A DNA stretch of 5,613 nt from Deltaproteobacteria bacterium (GTDB lineage Bacteria; Desulfobacterota; Desulfobacteria; Desulfobacterales; ETH-SRB1). The stretch is from NCBI GenBank assembly GCA_019314185.1, contig JAFCZU010000448.1, positions 1 to 5,613 of the forward strand, given 5' to 3'. A program made the position numbers and the translations under genes. This document shows, piece by piece, positions 1 to 5,613 of the stretch (the stretch's first letter is position 1; the number at the start of each line of letters is the position of its first letter). The notes beneath the pieces were generated by a model. The model saw nothing but the letters and a program-made list of their open reading frames with translations, was not told the origin of the DNA and made no database searches.

Positions 1-24
1 CTAATAGGACAAGTCCTTAATCAG

Positions 25-97
<73 letters not shown>

Positions 98-123
98 CTC
101 CTTTAGCTAATTTCCTTGGTATA

Positions 124-156
124 GGGTTAGTCATTTTGATGGCTAACCCTTTTTTA
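124..156 (+). terminator. Intrinsic terminator of the tRNA-Phe gene
   Basis: GGGTTAGTC (124-132) pairs with GGCTAACCC (141-149) over 9 bp, including one G-T pair, with an 8-nt loop. It is followed by six T (150-155). It lies 27 bp after the tRNA. The opposite strand has no U-tract, so it should act on the plus strand only. Confidence 0.9.
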
Positions 157-158
157 GT

Positions 159-290
159 TTAGCCGCAAATAAGGTTCAAGCCTTCATCAATGTATCCCTT
201 GGCCTCCCAGTTGCGGATTTGTTTTTGGGTGACGCCAGTCATTTTGGCTGTGTCACCGATGCTGTAATTCTTTTTTGTTAAATTTTTCAT
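159..290 (-). CDS. Short MerR-type helix-turn-helix protein, 43 aa, probably truncated
   Basis: The start is fixed by AAGGAGG (299-305 on the complement) about 8 nt before ATG. The sequence contains YSIGDTAKMTGVTQKQIRNW (residues 9-28) and then EAKGYI, the N-terminal helix-turn-helix and first wing of the MerR superfamily. In relatives the Y-S-I-G-x-x-A-x-x-x-G-V motif contacts promoter DNA. Members normally run 70-150 residues with a longer wing and a dimerisation helix. Here the chain ends after only nine more residues (DEGLNLICG). That tail does not match the usual continuation and resembles later MerR helix sequence (IDEG-L), so an internal deletion is possible. Without the dimerisation part it is unlikely to act as a normal MerR regulator, although the ribosome binding site is intact. 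It converges with the tRNA-Phe terminator. The family call is firm; activity is doubtful. Confidence 0.75.
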   Translation of the reverse strand: MKNLTKKNYSIGDTAKMTGVTQKQIRNWEAKGYIDEGLNLICG

Positions 291-361
291 AGAACTAACC
301 TCCTTGAATTATTGTTGAGGGCAAAAAAAAGCCCCTTCTGTATATAAGGGAGGTTAGTTTA
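291..361 (-). promoter_or_regulatory. Leader of the MerR-type gene with competing hairpins and SD sequestration
   Basis: Read on the minus strand, the leader carries AACTAACCTCCCTT (complement of 346-359). This is complementary to AAGGAGGTTAGTT (complement of 293-305), which includes the gene's SD: 11 contiguous pairs, a one-base bulge and 2 more. The same upstream arm can instead form a short stem, TCCCTT with AAGGGG, followed at once by eight U, which looks like an intrinsic terminator. A third option is GGGC-U8-GCCC (320-335). The folds are mutually exclusive. This is seen by eye; a switching function is inferred. Confidence 0.5.
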
Positions 362-428
362 TTCCTGCGGTTGAAAGATAAGTTTGGGGAAAGTTATTCG
401 TCTCAACATTAGGGGAGGTTAAATTATT

Positions 429-551
429 ATGCCCTGAAGAAAGAGATCGGCAAAGCAGTTCAGTCAGGAATTTAAATTGAAGGTTGTACTGGGATCAATG
501 AGAGAGGAGCTAACCACAAATCAAATAGCAGCTAAATATATTTCACGCTGA
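429..551 (+). pseudogene. IS3-family transposase OrfA remnant
   Basis: From the ATG at 429, preceded by GGGGAGG (413-419), the frame reads M-P-stop-RKRSAKQFSQEFKLKVVL and, shortly after, TTNQIAAKYISR-stop-R. This is the N-terminal helix-turn-helix of IS3-family OrfA proteins (RKR-x-S/T-x-x-F-K-x-x-V-x-L ... IA-x-KY ... ISxWK). TGA occurs at codon 3 and at codon 41, where the family usually has the Trp of the S-x-W-K/R motif. No OrfB (DDE integrase) sequence could be read downstream in any frame, so only about 40 residues of a normally ~100-residue OrfA survive. Terminal inverted repeats were not identified. It is dead as a transposase. Family assignment rests on motif memory and is fairly secure. 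Confidence 0.7.
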
Positions 552-850
552 AGGGGGGCTGCTGATCACATAATTCAGTGATTAGTTTTTGGAATAAATG
601 AAACAATTGTTTGGATATTTTGCCAATATCCCAACCGTCTGTGAATAAGGCTGAATGTTTGATGTATAGCAGAGATCAAAAGGCGCGGTAACGTGCACAT
701 AACCAGATCAATGAACGTGTCCAGATAGAGGGCGGTTGGGGCTGGCGAAGGGCAAGATAACTATTGAGAACATCATCTATTATCAGTGACAAAGCTACAT
801 AAAATTTTCAGGATTACAGCATCTGCTCGTTGCAAAAAATTTCTTCCAGA
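552..850. other. About 300 bp without a recognisable gene
   Basis: All six frames are short or interrupted. The plus-strand text just after 551 (R-G-A-A-D) may be a few more codons of the OrfA remnant. Beyond that no motif, RNA fold or repeat stood out. It is best described as decayed insertion-sequence or filler DNA. Confidence 0.4.
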
Positions 851-890
851 AAAAAAAGGACCGCTGAGACATAGCTAACAGTCCTTTTTC
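851..890. terminator. Bidirectional intrinsic terminator
   Basis: GGAC (858-861) pairs with GTCC (881-884) and GCT (863-865) with AGC (873-875). The stem is bounded by A7 (851-857) on the left and T5 (885-889) on the right, so each transcript strand ends in a U-tract. On the minus strand it lies about 90 bp after the stop of the secreted-protein gene and is its probable terminator. On the plus strand it would stop read-through from the IS3 remnant. Confidence 0.7.
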
Positions 891-979
891 ATTTTTCTTC
901 AACACGTTAAGCGATCGGCTCGTCATCAAAACCCTGCCTTCGCAAAGAAAATACTTTTTTTTATTATCAATAAATCATA

Positions 980-3067
980 TCATTTCAAGTTGTTATCGTG
1001 GGAAACCACAATCTCTACTGTTGCAGAACTGCTATTATTTGAATCATCCGTTGCAGTGATTACTACAGAATATACCCGGCCATTCCCACTGCCAGACCTT
1101 TCAGCTCGCAATAACAACTGGATCAACCCCATCTCCTGATTGATTACTGGAATCGTCCAATCAGGGGCCATATCCCCATCGCCTAAATCTTCTTCAGGTT
1201 CGTTGCTTGCTACAGTTGCAATCAAGGTTACTGGCAATCCACTGTTGTCGTTAGCATTCGCCTCTATTAAAATATCAATCATTTTGTGATTTGGCGGCCA
1301 AAGAATGCTCTGACTTGGAACTGGTGCCAGGGTAGGAACAGATGTATCTACAATCTCAAGATTAATGTCGCTCATAACAGTAGCGTTGATATTGTCATCT
1401 ACGTAAAGAGCAATGATGTGTTGTCCCAGACTCAATCCTGAAATAATACAGGAAGGCAACTCAACAGGGAATCCTTCAGCAAGGGCTTGAACAGTTCCTG
1501 TGCAAAGCACATCTGTATCTTCCATCCATTGATAATCAAGCATATCTCCGTCAAAGTCAGATACTTCTCCACATAAGTTTATTTCAGCACCATACGCATA
1601 CACTCCACCACCGCAAGCGGCTGCTTGAGGTGCAGAATTCTCTATTGTCAGTATCATTTCATCTGTGGATGTTACTTGTCCGTCAGTAATTTCCAAGGTT
1701 AGGGTATAAGTGCCTATATTCGAGAAAAGTGATACCAGCTCGAGTGGGCATGACCCATCTTCATTCACGAAATTCCAGTCCGTTAGGATATTTTCCTCCT
1801 CACGCCAGCGATATTCAAGGACATCGGGGGAGTCAGGGTTACTCGCAGTGCCTTGGATAACAGTTGATGCAACAGCCTCGCTGGAAATGGCGATGTTCTC
1901 TCCGGCCTCGGCCATAGGAGGATTTCCTGGGATCGCAAGAAATATCTCAAAATTAGTTTGACCACCCAGGAACTGCCTCACCCAAACAATATAGTTGTTG
2001 TTATTTAACTGAGGCCCCAACTCCCCGTAATCGTTGTTTGTTATTTGTATAATTTCTAAACCGTCATAGAGGAAAATTTCCCAGTCATTTCCGTCTGATT
2101 CCGCCCATGCAACGTAACCATTATCATTGATCTTATAATACCCACTGATTGACCATGAGTCCGATAATTTGGTGGTAGTGGAACCATCATACAAAAAAAT
2201 CCCTTCAGAACTGTGCCACACCACATGACCGTTATTATTTATTTGGGGCTCCCTATCATCATAATCGTTATTAGTAAGCTGTGTGATCGTACTGCCGTCA
2301 TATAGGAATATTTCAATATCTGTCCCATCGCTTCTGTCCCAGACTACATAACCATTATCATTTATCTGGGGGTTGTTGTTAAAAAAAGGCGAAGTTGTAA
2401 GGCTAATAACCTTATTGAGAGTTGATCCGTCATATAAAAATATGGCAGATGCATTGAAGAAGCCTAAGTGTATTCCCCCCTGCAAGACCACTTGGCCTTG
2501 ATTATTTATCTTTGGATTTCTTAAAGTGATGTAAGCATTCGGATATTTATCAAGATTTGCTACAAATTTTGTTATGTTTGATCCATCATAAAGAAAGGAA
2601 CCTGCAAAAACTGCATTTACGTCCATCTTGATGTATTCTTCCCATACTACAAAGTCATTATTATTAAAATCTACGGCCCGTTTAAAATCTGTCTCAGAGT
2701 TTGTCAATTGCGTGATGTCTGTGCCATCGAAAAGGAACAATTCTTCATTTGTTCCATCCAACTCAGACTGAGACCAGAGGATATGGCCGGTATTATTTAT
2801 CCAGACATCATCATCAGAAAGGTTATTATCTGTAATCTGATAAGTGGTTAAACCATCATAAAAAAACACTTCATTGTCGGTTCCCCCAGCACCAAATATA
2901 TCCCCTCCAAACCAAGCTACTTGGTTATTGTCATTTATTTGGGGGCCGTAATCGCTTCTGTCGTTGTCTGTAAGTTGGATTATTGTGTAATCTTGAGCAT
3001 ATGCAGTTAACGTAAATGTAAAAATTATCCCTACTGAGAATAGTAAAATTAATCTTAATTTTTTCAT
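980..3067 (-). CDS. Secreted beta-propeller / PKD-like / Ig-like multidomain protein, 695 aa
   Basis: The start follows AAAGGAGGT by 6 nt. Residues 1-24 form a Sec signal peptide (KK-R, hydrophobic core, AYA before Q25). Residues 31-380 are eight repeats of about 37-52 aa, each opening with a Q-L-T-N-N-D-like strand, then P-Q-I-N-x-N-G-x-V-V-W, and closing with E-I-F-L-Y-D-G. This is the pattern of TolB/WD40-like propeller blades, and eight units could close one propeller. Residues about 386-477 and 478-575 resemble two PKD-type domains; the second has four Cys (485, 499, 522, 540). Residues about 579-690 form an Ig/HYR-like module with LWPPNHKM (589-596), GDGD (629-632) and LRAERSGSGNGR (653-664), a module I recall from many secreted bacterial proteins. 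No C-terminal anchor or sorting signal is visible. A surface-binding role for polysaccharide, protein or matrix is inferred; no catalytic motif was seen. It is transcribed alone with its own leader and terminator. Confidence 0.88.
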   Translation of the reverse strand: MKKLRLILLFSVGIIFTFTLTAYAQDYTIIQLTDNDRSDYGPQINDNNQVAWFGGDIFGAGGTDNEVFFYDGLTTYQITDNNLSDDDVWINNTGHILWSQSELDGTNEELFLFDGTDITQLTNSETDFKRAVDFNNNDFVVWEEYIKMDVNAVFAGSFLYDGSNITKFVANLDKYPNAYITLRNPKINNQGQVVLQGGIHLGFFNASAIFLYDGSTLNKVISLTTSPFFNNNPQINDNGYVVWDRSDGTDIEIFLYDGSTITQLTNNDYDDREPQINNNGHVVWHSSEGIFLYDGSTTTKLSDSWSISGYYKINDNGYVAWAESDGNDWEIFLYDGLEIIQITNNDYGELGPQLNNNNYIVWVRQFLGGQTNFEIFLAIPGNPPMAEAGENIAISSEAVASTVIQGTASNPDSPDVLEYRWREEENILTDWNFVNEDGSCPLELVSLFSNIGTYTLTLEITDGQVTSTDEMILTIENSAPQAAACGGGVYAYGAEINLCGEVSDFDGDMLDYQWMEDTDVLCTGTVQALAEGFPVELPSCIISGLSLGQHIIALYVDDNINATVMSDINLEIVDTSVPTLAPVPSQSILWPPNHKMIDILIEANANDNSGLPVTLIATVASNEPEEDLGDGDMAPDWTIPVINQEMGLIQLLLRAERSGSGNGRVYSVVITATDDSNNSSSATVEIVVSHDNNLK

Positions 3068-3070
3068 GCG

Positions 3071-3101
3071 GTTACCTCCTTTGAATTAAAAGATGAGGTG
3101 A
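3071..3101 (-). promoter_or_regulatory. SD-sequestering hairpin before the secreted-protein gene
   Basis: On the minus strand ACCTC-AT-CTTT (3099 down to 3089) pairs with AAAGGAGGT (3082 down to 3074). This gives nine base pairs with a two-base bulge and a 6-nt loop. The right arm is the whole Shine-Dalgarno sequence of the 695-aa gene, so translation should depend on opening the stem. The pairing is read directly; a regulatory role is inferred. Confidence 0.5.
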
Positions 3102-3278
3102 TAAGTAATCGCTTTTTCGACCCACGTCAAAAAACAGAGCGACTATGCCGAACCACCCCTATTTTTGGCAGATAATTAACCATCGTTTGGGGCCAGGAAA
3201 TTCCTCTTTCCTGACTGCCATTGTTACATCTTCGACCTCACAGATTGATTTATTGTAGAAACTATTTTGTGCCCATAA
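3102..3278 (-). promoter_or_regulatory. Hairpin-rich region upstream of the secreted-protein gene
   Basis: This stretch lies between the umuC stump and the secreted-protein gene. CAGGAAA (3194-3200) with TTTCCTG (3207-3213) is flanked by GGC (3191-3193) and GCC (3217-3219). TGCC/GGCA arms flank the CCACCCC tract near 3150-3172. AGTCGCT can pair with AGCGATT across 3105-3145, enclosing GAC-GTGG-GTC. A TTGACG -35-like hexamer (complement of 3125-3130) has no good -10 at standard spacing. No known riboswitch core was recognised, and no umuC continuation. Confidence 0.3.
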
Positions 3279-3530
3279 TCACATATCGGCATAAAGAGCG
3301 TAGTTGGATGAAAAGACCTGAACTCCATGGGTTTTAATTAACTTACTGATCTTAAATACCGGAATACCCGTTTTAATGCCAAGAGCCTTGGCTTCGTTTG
3401 ACCTGGCAATAACACAGCCGTCATTATTGGAAAGCACTACAACAGGCTTTTTGGCAAGCTTTGGATTAAAAACCCGCTCACAGGAGACATAAAAGTTATT
3501 GCAGTCTACAATGGCAAAGGCAGGAAGCAT
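3279..3530 (-). pseudogene. umuC: umuC, N-terminal stump of DNA polymerase V catalytic subunit (83 of about 420 codons)
   Basis: The stump holds the start of a Y-family polymerase palm/fingers: [16 protein letters not shown] (residues 6-21) with the first metal-binding Asp9 and steric-gate Tyr14. [21 protein letters not shown] and [11 protein letters not shown] follow, all typical of UmuC. The frame meets TGA straight after ADM, where family members continue S-S-R-V-M. No continuation is visible in other frames before 3102. The second catalytic pair (S-I-D-E), thumb, little finger and beta-clamp motif are lost, so no polymerase activity is expected. ATG lies 12 nt after the restored umuD stop, the usual umuDC arrangement. 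Loss of the 3' part by deletion or replacement is inferred. Confidence 0.9.
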
Positions 3531-3542
3531 AAGTCATTACCG

Positions 3543-3973
3543 TCAAAGAGGATGGATTACGTTTGTTACTACACCCCAGATCTCGAAATTTGTTTCTTCT
3601 TCTATCTGCATGGGCTTGTAGTTTTCATTTTCAGGCATCAAAAAATTTTGCCTTTTATAATACGAATCCTTTTTACTGTTAAATCACCGTTAACTACGGC
3701 GATTACGACTTTTTTATCAGCAGGTTCGATGGCGCGATCCACGATCAGGATATCTCCGGGATGTACCCCAGCATCGACCATGGAATCTCCCGCGACCCTA
3801 ACAAAAAATGTTGCAGCAGGATGCTTAATAAGGTGTTTGTTCAGGTCCAGCTCGCCTTCAATATAATCTTCTGCAGGGGACGGGAATCCAGCTTCAACCG
3901 GAATCATGAACAAAGGGCGTTCGCATTCGGTTGACTGGTCAGGATAGTATATGGCATCTATATTTGCAGGCAT
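3543..3973 (-). pseudogene. umuD: umuD, SOS mutagenesis protein, single frameshift near the 3' end
   Basis: From ATG at 3973 the frame encodes a UmuD/LexA-type S24 serine protease domain. Ala28-Gly29 (EAGFPSPAEDY) is the self-cleavage site, GDSM holds the nucleophile Ser64, and Lys101 in LTVKR is the general base. All three sit four positions after E. coli Cys24-Gly25, Ser60 and Lys97. The frame stops at TGA (3638-3640) after residue 111. Adding one base to the A6 run at 3640-3645 (T6 on the coding strand), or a -1 slip there, restores 32 more codons (LMPENENYKPMQIEEE, then EIWGVV) ending at 3543. The total becomes 143 aa, the normal size. A true indel, a sequencing homopolymer error and slippage cannot be told apart here. 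With umuC truncated, decay is the simplest reading. UmuD' would normally pair with UmuC to form Pol V. Confidence 0.88.
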
Positions 3974-4197
3974 GTTATCACTTCTAAAAAAACGAAATTA
4001 GTTTATAAATTTATCATACCGCATTTTCTGATAAAATTATAGTAAAAATATAGAGTGCTTTAGGCTCAAGATATCTTGCCACAAATCACCAGAATGTTGC
4101 CGTGTGCTGCATATATCCATACTGAACACTTACTTTTTAAAGTTAGCTTTAACTGCTTGTTTTGTCAATGAAACAGGATGAGAATCAATTGATACTG
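3974..4197 (-). promoter_or_regulatory. Region upstream of umuD; promoter and SOS operator expected, not identified
   Basis: A modest SD (GAAGTGA) precedes umuD. Upstream are AT-rich TATAAT/TATGAT-like hexamers (complement of 4010-4045) without a convincing -35. Small palindromes occur at 4005-4014 (ATAAATTTAT), 4067-4078 (CAAGATATCTTG) and 4137-4152 (TTAAAG-TTAG-CTTTAA). None matches the CTGT-N8-ACAG or GAAC-N4-GTTC LexA boxes. The last could be a weak terminator for the split gene at 4198-5007. Confidence 0.25.
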
Positions 4198-4307
4198 CTA
4201 AATGACATCTTCTCGATCCTTGCGGTCTCTCTCAAAATCCATCTTTTTCTCAAGTTCCCTACGCTTTTTTTCCTCCAACCCTTCCTCATATGCCCATCCC
4301 ATTGCTC

Positions 4308-4312
4308 CACCA
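4308..4312 (+). repeat. Target-site duplication CACCA, left copy
   Basis: CACCA abuts the left terminal repeat and is repeated at 4809-4813. Removing one copy with the element restores the split gene's frame. The next base on each side differs, so the duplication is exactly 5 bp. Confidence 0.8.
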
Positions 4313-4339
4313 TGTTAAGATGCGAATAGTGTAACGCTT
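4313..4339 (+). repeat. Left terminal inverted repeat (outer box)
   Basis: It matches the reverse complement of 4782-4808 at 25 of 27 positions, with mismatches at positions 2 and 8. It contains TGCGAATAGTGTAACGCTT (4321-4339), identical at both ends. Confidence 0.9.
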
Positions 4340-4355
4340 GATACCCATTTCACTG

Positions 4356-4375
4356 ACAAAATAGTGTAACGCTTT
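4356..4375 (+). repeat. Left inner box of the element
   Basis: ACAAAATAGTGTAACGCTTT is identical over 20 bp to the reverse complement of 4680-4699 and shares the 14-bp core with the outer boxes. It is a likely second transposase-binding site. Confidence 0.85.
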
Positions 4376-4476
4376 TTCCCCGCCTTACCCTGCCCCAAAA
4401 AATTATTAAATACCCCGCCTATCCCGCAAATATTGCCATAAACATGAAAAACATAATGACCATTTTGATTTTTGAC

Positions 4477-4505
4477 TTGACATTAAGCCTATATTTTTCT
4501 ATAGC
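4477..4505 (+). promoter_or_regulatory. Sigma-70-type promoter inside the element
   Basis: TTGACA (4477-4482) is a perfect -35. A 17-bp spacer follows, then TATAGC (4500-4505) as -10. Transcription would begin near 4512, just before the palindrome at 4528-4551. No gene follows, so it may be a relic of the parent element's promoter or drive a short RNA. Confidence 0.5.
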
Positions 4506-4527
4506 TAATTAAAATTGAACTACATCA

Positions 4528-4551
4528 AATTGTCCCCAATTGGGGACAATT
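4528..4551. repeat. Perfect 24-bp palindrome (TTGTCCCC ... GGGGACAA)
   Basis: The two 12-bp arms are exact reverse complements with no loop. It starts about 16 bp downstream of the inferred start of the internal promoter, an operator-like position. It could equally be a cruciform or REP-like sequence picked up by the element. Confidence 0.7.
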
Positions 4552-4679
4552 ATCATATCAATTACGAATATAACTCCTTGAAATTTAATCAAATATTTAT
4601 TTTATACCCCCTACGCATTCAGCTCTAAAAATCCTTTTTCAAAATTAGTAAAAAAATACTCAAATTCTGAAATTTTGCT

Positions 4680-4699
4680 AAAGCGTTACACTATTTTGT
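4680..4699 (-). repeat. Right inner box of the element
   Basis: Reverse complement of the left inner box, 20 of 20 matching. A weaker, oppositely oriented look-alike, TGCGATAGTGT, lies at 4714-4724. Confidence 0.85.
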
Positions 4700-4781
4700 T
4701 ACTCCTACAAATCTGCGATAGTGTTTATCCTGCTGAAATTATGGGTAATACTTATTTTTTAAAAAATGTGAGGAAAGAAAA

Positions 4782-4808
4782 AAGCGTTACACTATTCGCA
4801 ACTTAATA
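4782..4808 (-). repeat. Right terminal inverted repeat (outer box)
   Basis: Partner of 4313-4339. On the minus strand its GAA-TAG supplies the premature stop codon (4792-4794) of the split acidic gene. Confidence 0.9.
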
Positions 4809-4813
4809 CACCA
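4809..4813 (+). repeat. Target-site duplication CACCA, right copy
   Basis: Direct repeat of 4308-4312 adjoining the right terminal repeat. It lies inside the coding sequence of the split gene across codons 65-67 of the ancestral frame. Confidence 0.8.
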
Positions 4814-5026
4814 AGAAGAAAGGCATCTTTGCCAGTGAATTCATCATCCTCTGATTCAGCCTCATACGGTTCATCATTGGATTTATTGTCATCATCAATA
4901 AGGTCATCCATTTCAAGGTTTTCCTCAAGGCTGTCCTCAAAAGAATCCTCATCCATGAATTCGCCTTCATCGAAATCCTCATCAAAATTATCAAAAAAGT
5001 CTTCCATTTTTTCACCTCCTGAAAAC

Positions 5027-5067
5027 AAAAAGCCCCCAAAACTGGAATATCAGACAATGAGGGCTTT
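5027..5067 (-). terminator. Intrinsic terminator between two small genes
   Basis: On the minus strand AAAGCCCTC (5067-5059) pairs with GGGGGCTTT (5037-5029) over 9 bp with one G-U, around a 21-nt loop. A run of five T ends at 5027. It lies 26 bp after the stop of the 53-aa gene and about 20 bp before the start of the split acidic gene. It can serve as terminator of the first and attenuator of the second. Confidence 0.75.
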
Positions 5068-5093
5068 CGTTTCTGTTTAAGATTATTATTGTT

Positions 5094-5255
5094 TTAACTC
5101 ACACCCCTCCTTTTTTGCTGTTTTTTTCTGTCTAAAATCTTCGGCAGATACTCGAAAACAAACTCAATTCCTTTGGTCATAGGAATACCAAGTGCCCAGG
5201 AAATTCGCCTTAAAGTGGAAGATGATTTCATGCTCAACTCTGGGGTATATGCCAT
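5094..5255 (-). CDS. Conserved-looking small protein, 53 aa, function unknown
   Basis: The start is the ATG at 5255, preceded at 7 nt by AAAGGAGGTGAAAG. An in-frame ATG 27 nt upstream has no SD and is rejected. The sequence MAYTPELSMKSSSTLRRISW (1-20), then ALGIPMTKGIEFVFEYLPKILDRKK, looks like two or three short helices and then a basic tail (QQKRRGVS). The T-L-R-R-I-x-W-A-x-x-x-P-M-T-K pattern reminds me of small uncharacterised proteins from anaerobic Proteobacteria, some of which may end in a cysteine-rich zinc-binding segment. No cysteine is present here, and the tail is encoded across A7 and A6 runs, so a lost 3' segment cannot be excluded. Size and basic character would suit a DNA- or RNA-binding protein; this is inference. 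It is the first gene of a minus-strand pair with the split acidic gene. Confidence 0.7.
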   Translation of the reverse strand: MAYTPELSMKSSSTLRRISWALGIPMTKGIEFVFEYLPKILDRKKQQKRRGVS

Positions 5256-5280
5256 TGCTCTTTCACCTCCTTTCAAACGC

Positions 5281-5315
5281 AAAAAGGGCGGCTGCCTTTT
5301 AAGACAAACCGCCCT
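5281..5315 (-). terminator. Terminator-like hairpin (attenuator?) before the 53-aa gene
   Basis: On the minus strand AGGGCGG (5315-5309) pairs with CCGCCCT (5291-5285). Inside, TGTCTT pairs with AAGGCA, and TTTTT follows (to 5281). The SD of the 53-aa gene begins about 7 nt later. No gene was found upstream for it to terminate, so it may act as an attenuator. Confidence 0.65.
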
Positions 5316-5613
5316 CTTGCTCTGGTTTTATTGATATATGTGTTTACTACTGATTACTAAACTTTAATTAATGGCCCTTAACAGATAGCCGTGGGGGCTA
5401 TAAAGTATACCTCACGAAATATTCCCTTATTCATATATAAGGGTGCCGACGACAATAAATCCGGTTAGATTCTGATTGATGACAATGATGAAAATGGCAG
5501 GAAATATATCGGCGGATGCCGCCAAATCAAAATAACCACGATGCATTGTAGTTCTATGAATGCTAAAAACTCGCTAACAAAAGTGGGTCGCCTTACTAAA
5601 TAAAATATTACCG
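5316..5613. other. About 300 bp without a supported gene
   Basis: Two small hairpins are visible: ATAGCC-GTGGG-GGCTAT (5385-5401) and CCCTTAT-TCATAT-ATAAGGG (5424-5443). A plus-strand frame is open from 5469 to 5603 but lacks a start codon with an SD. No convincing promoter for the minus-strand genes was found, though one should lie here or beyond the edge. Confidence 0.4.

Follow-up and report, generated by a model that had tools for sequence, protein, structure and literature searches.

Background

Prokaryotic miniature inverted-repeat transposable elements (MITEs) are short, carry terminal inverted repeats (TIRs) and target site duplications (TSDs), lack a transposase gene and have ends related to those of a complete transposon. 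Transposons that pair a transposase with an ATPase include the IS21 family (IstA/IstB), the Tn7-like elements (TnsB, TnsC, TniQ) and phage Mu (MuA/MuB). IS21 ends contain two repeats each (PMC10122671), and Tn7-like ends are asymmetric (abstract of PMC13370975). Here we describe a 496-bp MITE that splits a small gene for an acidic protein in a stretch of 5,613 bases (the window), i.e. positions 1-5,613 of the forward strand of contig JAFCZU010000448.1 in assembly GCA_019314185.1. The source is an uncultured Deltaproteobacteria bacterium, which probably lives by sulfate reduction. The complete transposons that share the ends of this MITE look as if they work like IS21 and the Tn7 relatives yet fail defining tests of both.

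Results

The element lies between two copies of CACCA, and its left terminus, TGTTAAGATGCGAATAGTGTAACGCTT, is identical at 25 of 27 positions to the opposite terminus read inward, TATTAAGTTGCGAATAGTGTAACGCTT. The window contains one inverted pair of this quality, counting from both sides; 20 first-order Markov copies of it contain none. A sequence-only reading of the window had placed the borders and the length exactly so, and had proposed that removal of the element with one CACCA restores the frame of a split gene, which proved right: 66 and 36 codons join in one frame of 102 amino acids with no internal stop. The rebuilt junction, AFLLGGAMGWAYEE, is the same in the closest homologue (P0002), which likewise has 102 amino acids. 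At present the frame continues beyond residue 66 with five codons, VLSCE, read from the duplication and the element, and then stops, so that the product would have 71 amino acids. We infer that the acidic gene is inactive now, because the conserved C-terminal stretch would be missing from this product.

Uninterrupted homologues and an empty site, both of which the sequence-only reading had asked to be sought, are present. The unjoined N-terminal frame (71 amino acids) used as the query matched 19 proteins including that of the window itself, and 17 of the 18 others (P0002-P0018) cross the junction with a conserved AMG-AYEEG-like stretch; P0012 (72 amino acids) ends ten residues beyond it. P0019 departs from the alignment just ahead of the junction, and its divergence looks like a frameshift. 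Homologues that end near residue 66 had been named as the sign of a wrong reconstruction, and none of the 18 simply does so. A profile built from 16 of the 18 homologues, leaving out P0012 and P0019, matched 8 of the 291 genomes from the order of G001 (recorded as Desulfobacteraceae bacterium, isolate Grevelingen) at 11 places, all of which span the junction, two with an in-frame TGA. Peptide patterns of the acidic protein had given no match in genome or viral contigs, yet this later profile did, and a plasmid search was without match.

The empty site is found in a syntenic relative, L102 (G001:C351), which is collinear with the window DNA over 3729-4047 (85.6%), 4039-4305 (82.4%) and 4811-4877 (83.6%). 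Only four bases separate its matches to the last two segments, i.e. the locus is uninterrupted, and none of the five loci aligned across the junction has a gap there. The acidic gene in L102 looks decayed at its other end, because its first ~30 codons are absent. Elsewhere in G001, the same genome, lies a second copy of the MITE (L029, 483 bp, 92% identity over 485 columns), flanked on both sides by ATCGCT, a 6-bp duplication of its own.

Like other prokaryotic MITEs, the element has TIRs and a TSD, no transposase gene (the longest listed frame within the 496 bp has 43 amino acids), the ends of a complete element, and a copy elsewhere (L029). A core repeat occurs twice in each end, with a spacing of 35 bp on the left and 101 bp on the right (Table 1). 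The perfect palindrome inside the element may be a binding site; its interpretation as a gene remnant was not supported. The pattern TGTCCCC-GGGGACA also occurs within the gene for a ~190-amino-acid protein in three relatives (L032 at 1437, L065 at 1544 and L100 at 551), with no match in L090 and L134 and no further site in the 634 kb of sequence scanned (partly overlapping).

Table 1. Positions and strands of the features of the window.
Feature	Positions	Strand	Evidence
Non-autonomous element (MITE), 496 bp, without transposase gene	4313..4808	.	TIRs, TSD, empty site in L102, 92% copy L029
Left TIR, 27 bp, includes repeat copy L1	4313..4339	+	25/27 match to right end
Left internal repeat copy L2, 35 bp inward of L1	4360..4375	+	
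Right TIR, 27 bp, includes repeat copy R1	4782..4808	-	25/27 match to left end
Right internal repeat copy R2, 101 bp inward of R1	4680..4695	-	
Perfect 24-bp palindrome AATTGTCCCCAATTGGGGACAATT	4528..4551	.	
TSD CACCA, left copy	4308..4312	+	
TSD CACCA, right copy	4809..4813	+	
Acidic gene, codons 1-66	4810..5007	-	
Acidic gene, codons 67-102, then stop TAG at 4198-4200	4201..4308	-	
Present truncated frame, 66 codons + VLSCE, stop at 4792-4794, 71 amino acids	4792..5007	-	
S24 peptidase gene (UmuD/LexA-like), 111 amino acids	3638..3973	-	
Y-family polymerase fragment, 83 amino acids	3279..3530	-	
695-amino-acid protein	980..3067	-	
tRNA-Phe gene (GAA)	25..98		
MerR-like short frame	159..290		

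The ends of the MITE lead to a family of complete elements of ~4.3-4.5 kb in which genes for three small proteins accompany those for a DDE-type transposase and an AAA ATPase, and the end alignment gives the same repeats and unequal spacing for both. In the window, L029, L048, L032, L090, L092 and L134 the two cores of the left end are spaced by 34-35 bp and those of the right end by 100-104 bp; the right-end spacing is 101-102 bp in L061 and L100. A Desulforhopalus record (L032) holds both ends of a 4275-bp element with genes for a 553-residue transposase, a 222-residue ATPase and the three small proteins. The element L090 (genome G123) has 4508 bp, a duplicated CCAGCT, and open frames for the ~190-residue protein, the transposase and the ATPase. 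One chromosome (G015) contains at least three 4462-bp copies that are 99.1-99.8% identical; each has an open transposase frame and its own flanking repeat (AAGCAT, GTCGTT and TCTCC). Such near-identical copies with their own duplications are the pattern left by recent movement. In the G015 element, three small genes (L134, 1591-3203) lie upstream of the transposase gene; they encode a protein rich in cysteine, one with a CHC2 zinc finger and the ~190-residue protein.

Of 395 genomes from the phylum, three match the L032 transposase, G065 weakly (31% over 97-247), and complete elements are therefore uncommon among the species genomes. A left end in G257 is adjoined by a transposase frame that is 63.5% identical to that of L032 and has a stop at codon 8. 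The transposase gene of L092 (G133) lacks approximately residues 335-429 and the element has no TSD; it is possibly an intermediate between a complete element and a MITE.

We examined TSDs in 15 elements for which both ends were available. Clean duplications flank ten of them, three more have one after a border shift of 1-4 bases, and two (L032 and L092) have none. The clean duplications are 6 bp long in eight cases and 5 bp in two, the window being among the latter; the 5-bp case in G015 can also be read as 6 bp with the border moved by one base. The 5-bp duplication in the window is slightly atypical for the family, and the rebuilt frame is unaffected.

Scanning the species genomes for the two-core pattern gave 29 loci, of which six belong to the family by terminal sequence (L015, L017, L022, L029, L031 and L032, the first two from one genome). 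Their records name Desulfobacteraceae, Desulfobacterales or Desulforhopalus in five cases and Deltaproteobacteria only in one. The other 23 loci look unrelated and were rejected because their repeat context showed tandem repeats or dissimilar flanks, with gene lists made for L010, L011 and L013 only. Six viral contigs matching the 18-base end pattern were rejected as well, all six having shared flanks and the site in L003, the one with its genes listed, lying within a long phage gene. Of two viral contigs that have the paired pattern, L007 and L008, the former was rejected because it showed no related ends. Searched with the element DNA, 23 of the 291 genomes of the order match at E-value 0.001 (two candidates scored per genome), several of these matches being short, internal and not necessarily elements, and there was no match in the plasmids or phages searched. 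The MITE left end is closest to those in G174 (92% over 83 bp) and G257 (88% over 82 bp). One small relative, L052 (213 bp), has a single core per end. The other of these two, an IMG/VR contig (L008, 10321-10445), has the left end of a family member at its edge and, by eye, a primase-helicase-like gene; viral or integrative elements may carry members of the family.

No match above cut-off was shown for the transposase among the Pfam and NCBIfam models, and none was found in the plasmids or phages searched. At E-value 0.001 it has 697 homologues among 7997 candidates scored; the best 120 of these have no Pfam domain and are named 'hypothetical protein' except for 'integrase' twice and 'transposase' once. 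Its predicted fold matches TnsB of ShCAST (7svw_B, Foldseek E-value 5.7e-10) and the Mu transposase (4fcy_A, 5.0e-8), and in a second fold comparison retroviral integrases tie on Z. The modelled fold resembles those of TnsB, MuA and IstA, and it is by this prediction, rather than by any profile, that we class the protein as a TnsB-like DDE transposase.

Downstream of the acidic gene lies a gene for an S24 (UmuD/LexA-type) peptidase; among the 16 stretches tested, this neighbour recurs only in L102 (and in L069, the same place). After the peptidase gene comes a Y-family polymerase fragment that covers positions 1-75 of 148 in the IMS profile, and this umuDC-like pair looks decayed. The 695-residue protein has a hydrophobic start, a PKD domain and repeats that by eye are of the types 'PQINDNG-VVW' and 'EIFLYDG--ITQLT'. 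The tRNA-Phe gene near the contig start is intact and is followed by the MerR-like frame.

Discussion

Our analysis makes it very probable that the MITE relied for its movement on a transposase and an ATPase acting in trans, from a complete relative, and was inserted between codons 66 and 67, duplicating 5 bp. The borders, the duplication, the empty site, the second copy and the complete relatives with the same end anatomy are all direct observations. In the mechanism that we propose, a complete relative would supply the transposase and the ATPase, and the transposase would bind the two repeat copies of each end and then pair both ends, by analogy with TnsB, IstA and MuA. The ends would be joined to a staggered target cut of 5 or 6 bp, and the AAA ATPase may help to choose this target, as in TnsB/TnsC, IstA/IstB and MuA/MuB. 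Such an insertion would cost the acidic gene its conserved C-terminal part.

Several points weigh against this explanation. Transposition in trans is argued by analogy, and a complete partner element in the cell of the window organism itself is assumed. Among five genomes that carry related ends, two (G003 and G004) have no transposase match, and G001 has only the end part of the transposase (residues 327-552 of 553, 52% identity), with an ATPase gene beside it, on a 3.4-kb contig. No duplication is seen at L032 and L092. TM-scores of the fold matches are low, at 0.27-0.31 of the model, which is itself only fair (predicted local distance difference test 72). The unequal spacing is not universal, since L022 (246 bp) has 34 bp between its cores at both ends, and the right-end spacing is 24-36 bp in L031, L091, L096 and L097 (elements of 189-218 bp).

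A 496-bp sequence without a transposase gene could also be a non-mobile repeat or a recombination product, lying between two unrelated reading frames. The target duplication, the L029 copy with a duplication of its own and the restored frame all argue for mobility, and the syntenic empty site in L102 contradicts this alternative, which we regard as hardly credible. Domestication of the insertion, whereby the element gives the host a used new C-terminus (VLSCE) or a promoter, is very unlikely: the truncated 71-residue frame is open and one promoter-like match lies within the element, but no VLSCE-type ending occurs among the 18 homologues, and the two promoter-like matches in 4150-5100 are fewer than in shuffles (mean 3.3).

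It is also unlikely, though less so, that the element is the MITE of a true IS21-family insertion sequence. As in IS21, an AAA ATPase gene follows the transposase gene, the predicted fold is related and each end has two repeats. Unlike in IS21, three additional genes lie upstream in the element of G015, and the IS21 profile NF033546 has no match at the elements in G002, G015 and G123 and none by hmmscan of two transposases; a profile comparison with 12 IS21 proteins gave a probability of 0.6%. No IstB profile was matched either: two ATPases compared with Pfam hit AAA or P-loop families of other kinds, and these below cut-off.

The parent family of the MITE shares with the Tn7-like elements the predicted transposase fold, several repeats per end, unequal ends and an ATPase partner. 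In contrast, the five genes of the G015 element give no TniQ match at E-values up to 1 and no TnsA match. The target duplication of Tn7 is 5 bp, a length seen in two of the ten clean duplications of the family, which are mostly 6 bp. The resemblance to phage Mu lies in the predicted fold of the transposase core; the family is not a phage, and no sequence match was found. We place the family beside Tn7 and IS21, inside neither, because no TniQ was found and the IS21 profile had no match. It has no name in the libraries used (ISfinder not among them), a difference from other prokaryotic MITEs, and no description of it was found in the sections consulted of PMC10122671, PMC10293859 and the MITE review PMC10969869. 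We tentatively speculate, as a real but less than even prospect, that this is an undescribed family with a TnsB/MuA/IstA-type transposase escaping Pfam and NCBIfam, in which the CHC2 protein or the ~190-residue protein, present where TniQ is found in Tn7 relatives, could be a new kind of target selector or regulator.

Genes interrupted by MITEs are nothing new, and the insertion itself is routine gene decay. The identity of the element is the more interesting part: the new aspect is the parent family that is reached through the MITE ends, and the weight of our finding lies there. With TnsB-like chemistry, an ATPase and unfamiliar helpers, this family may offer a fresh comparison for how ATP-dependent transposons choose their targets, and the MITE a compact natural substrate for such work.
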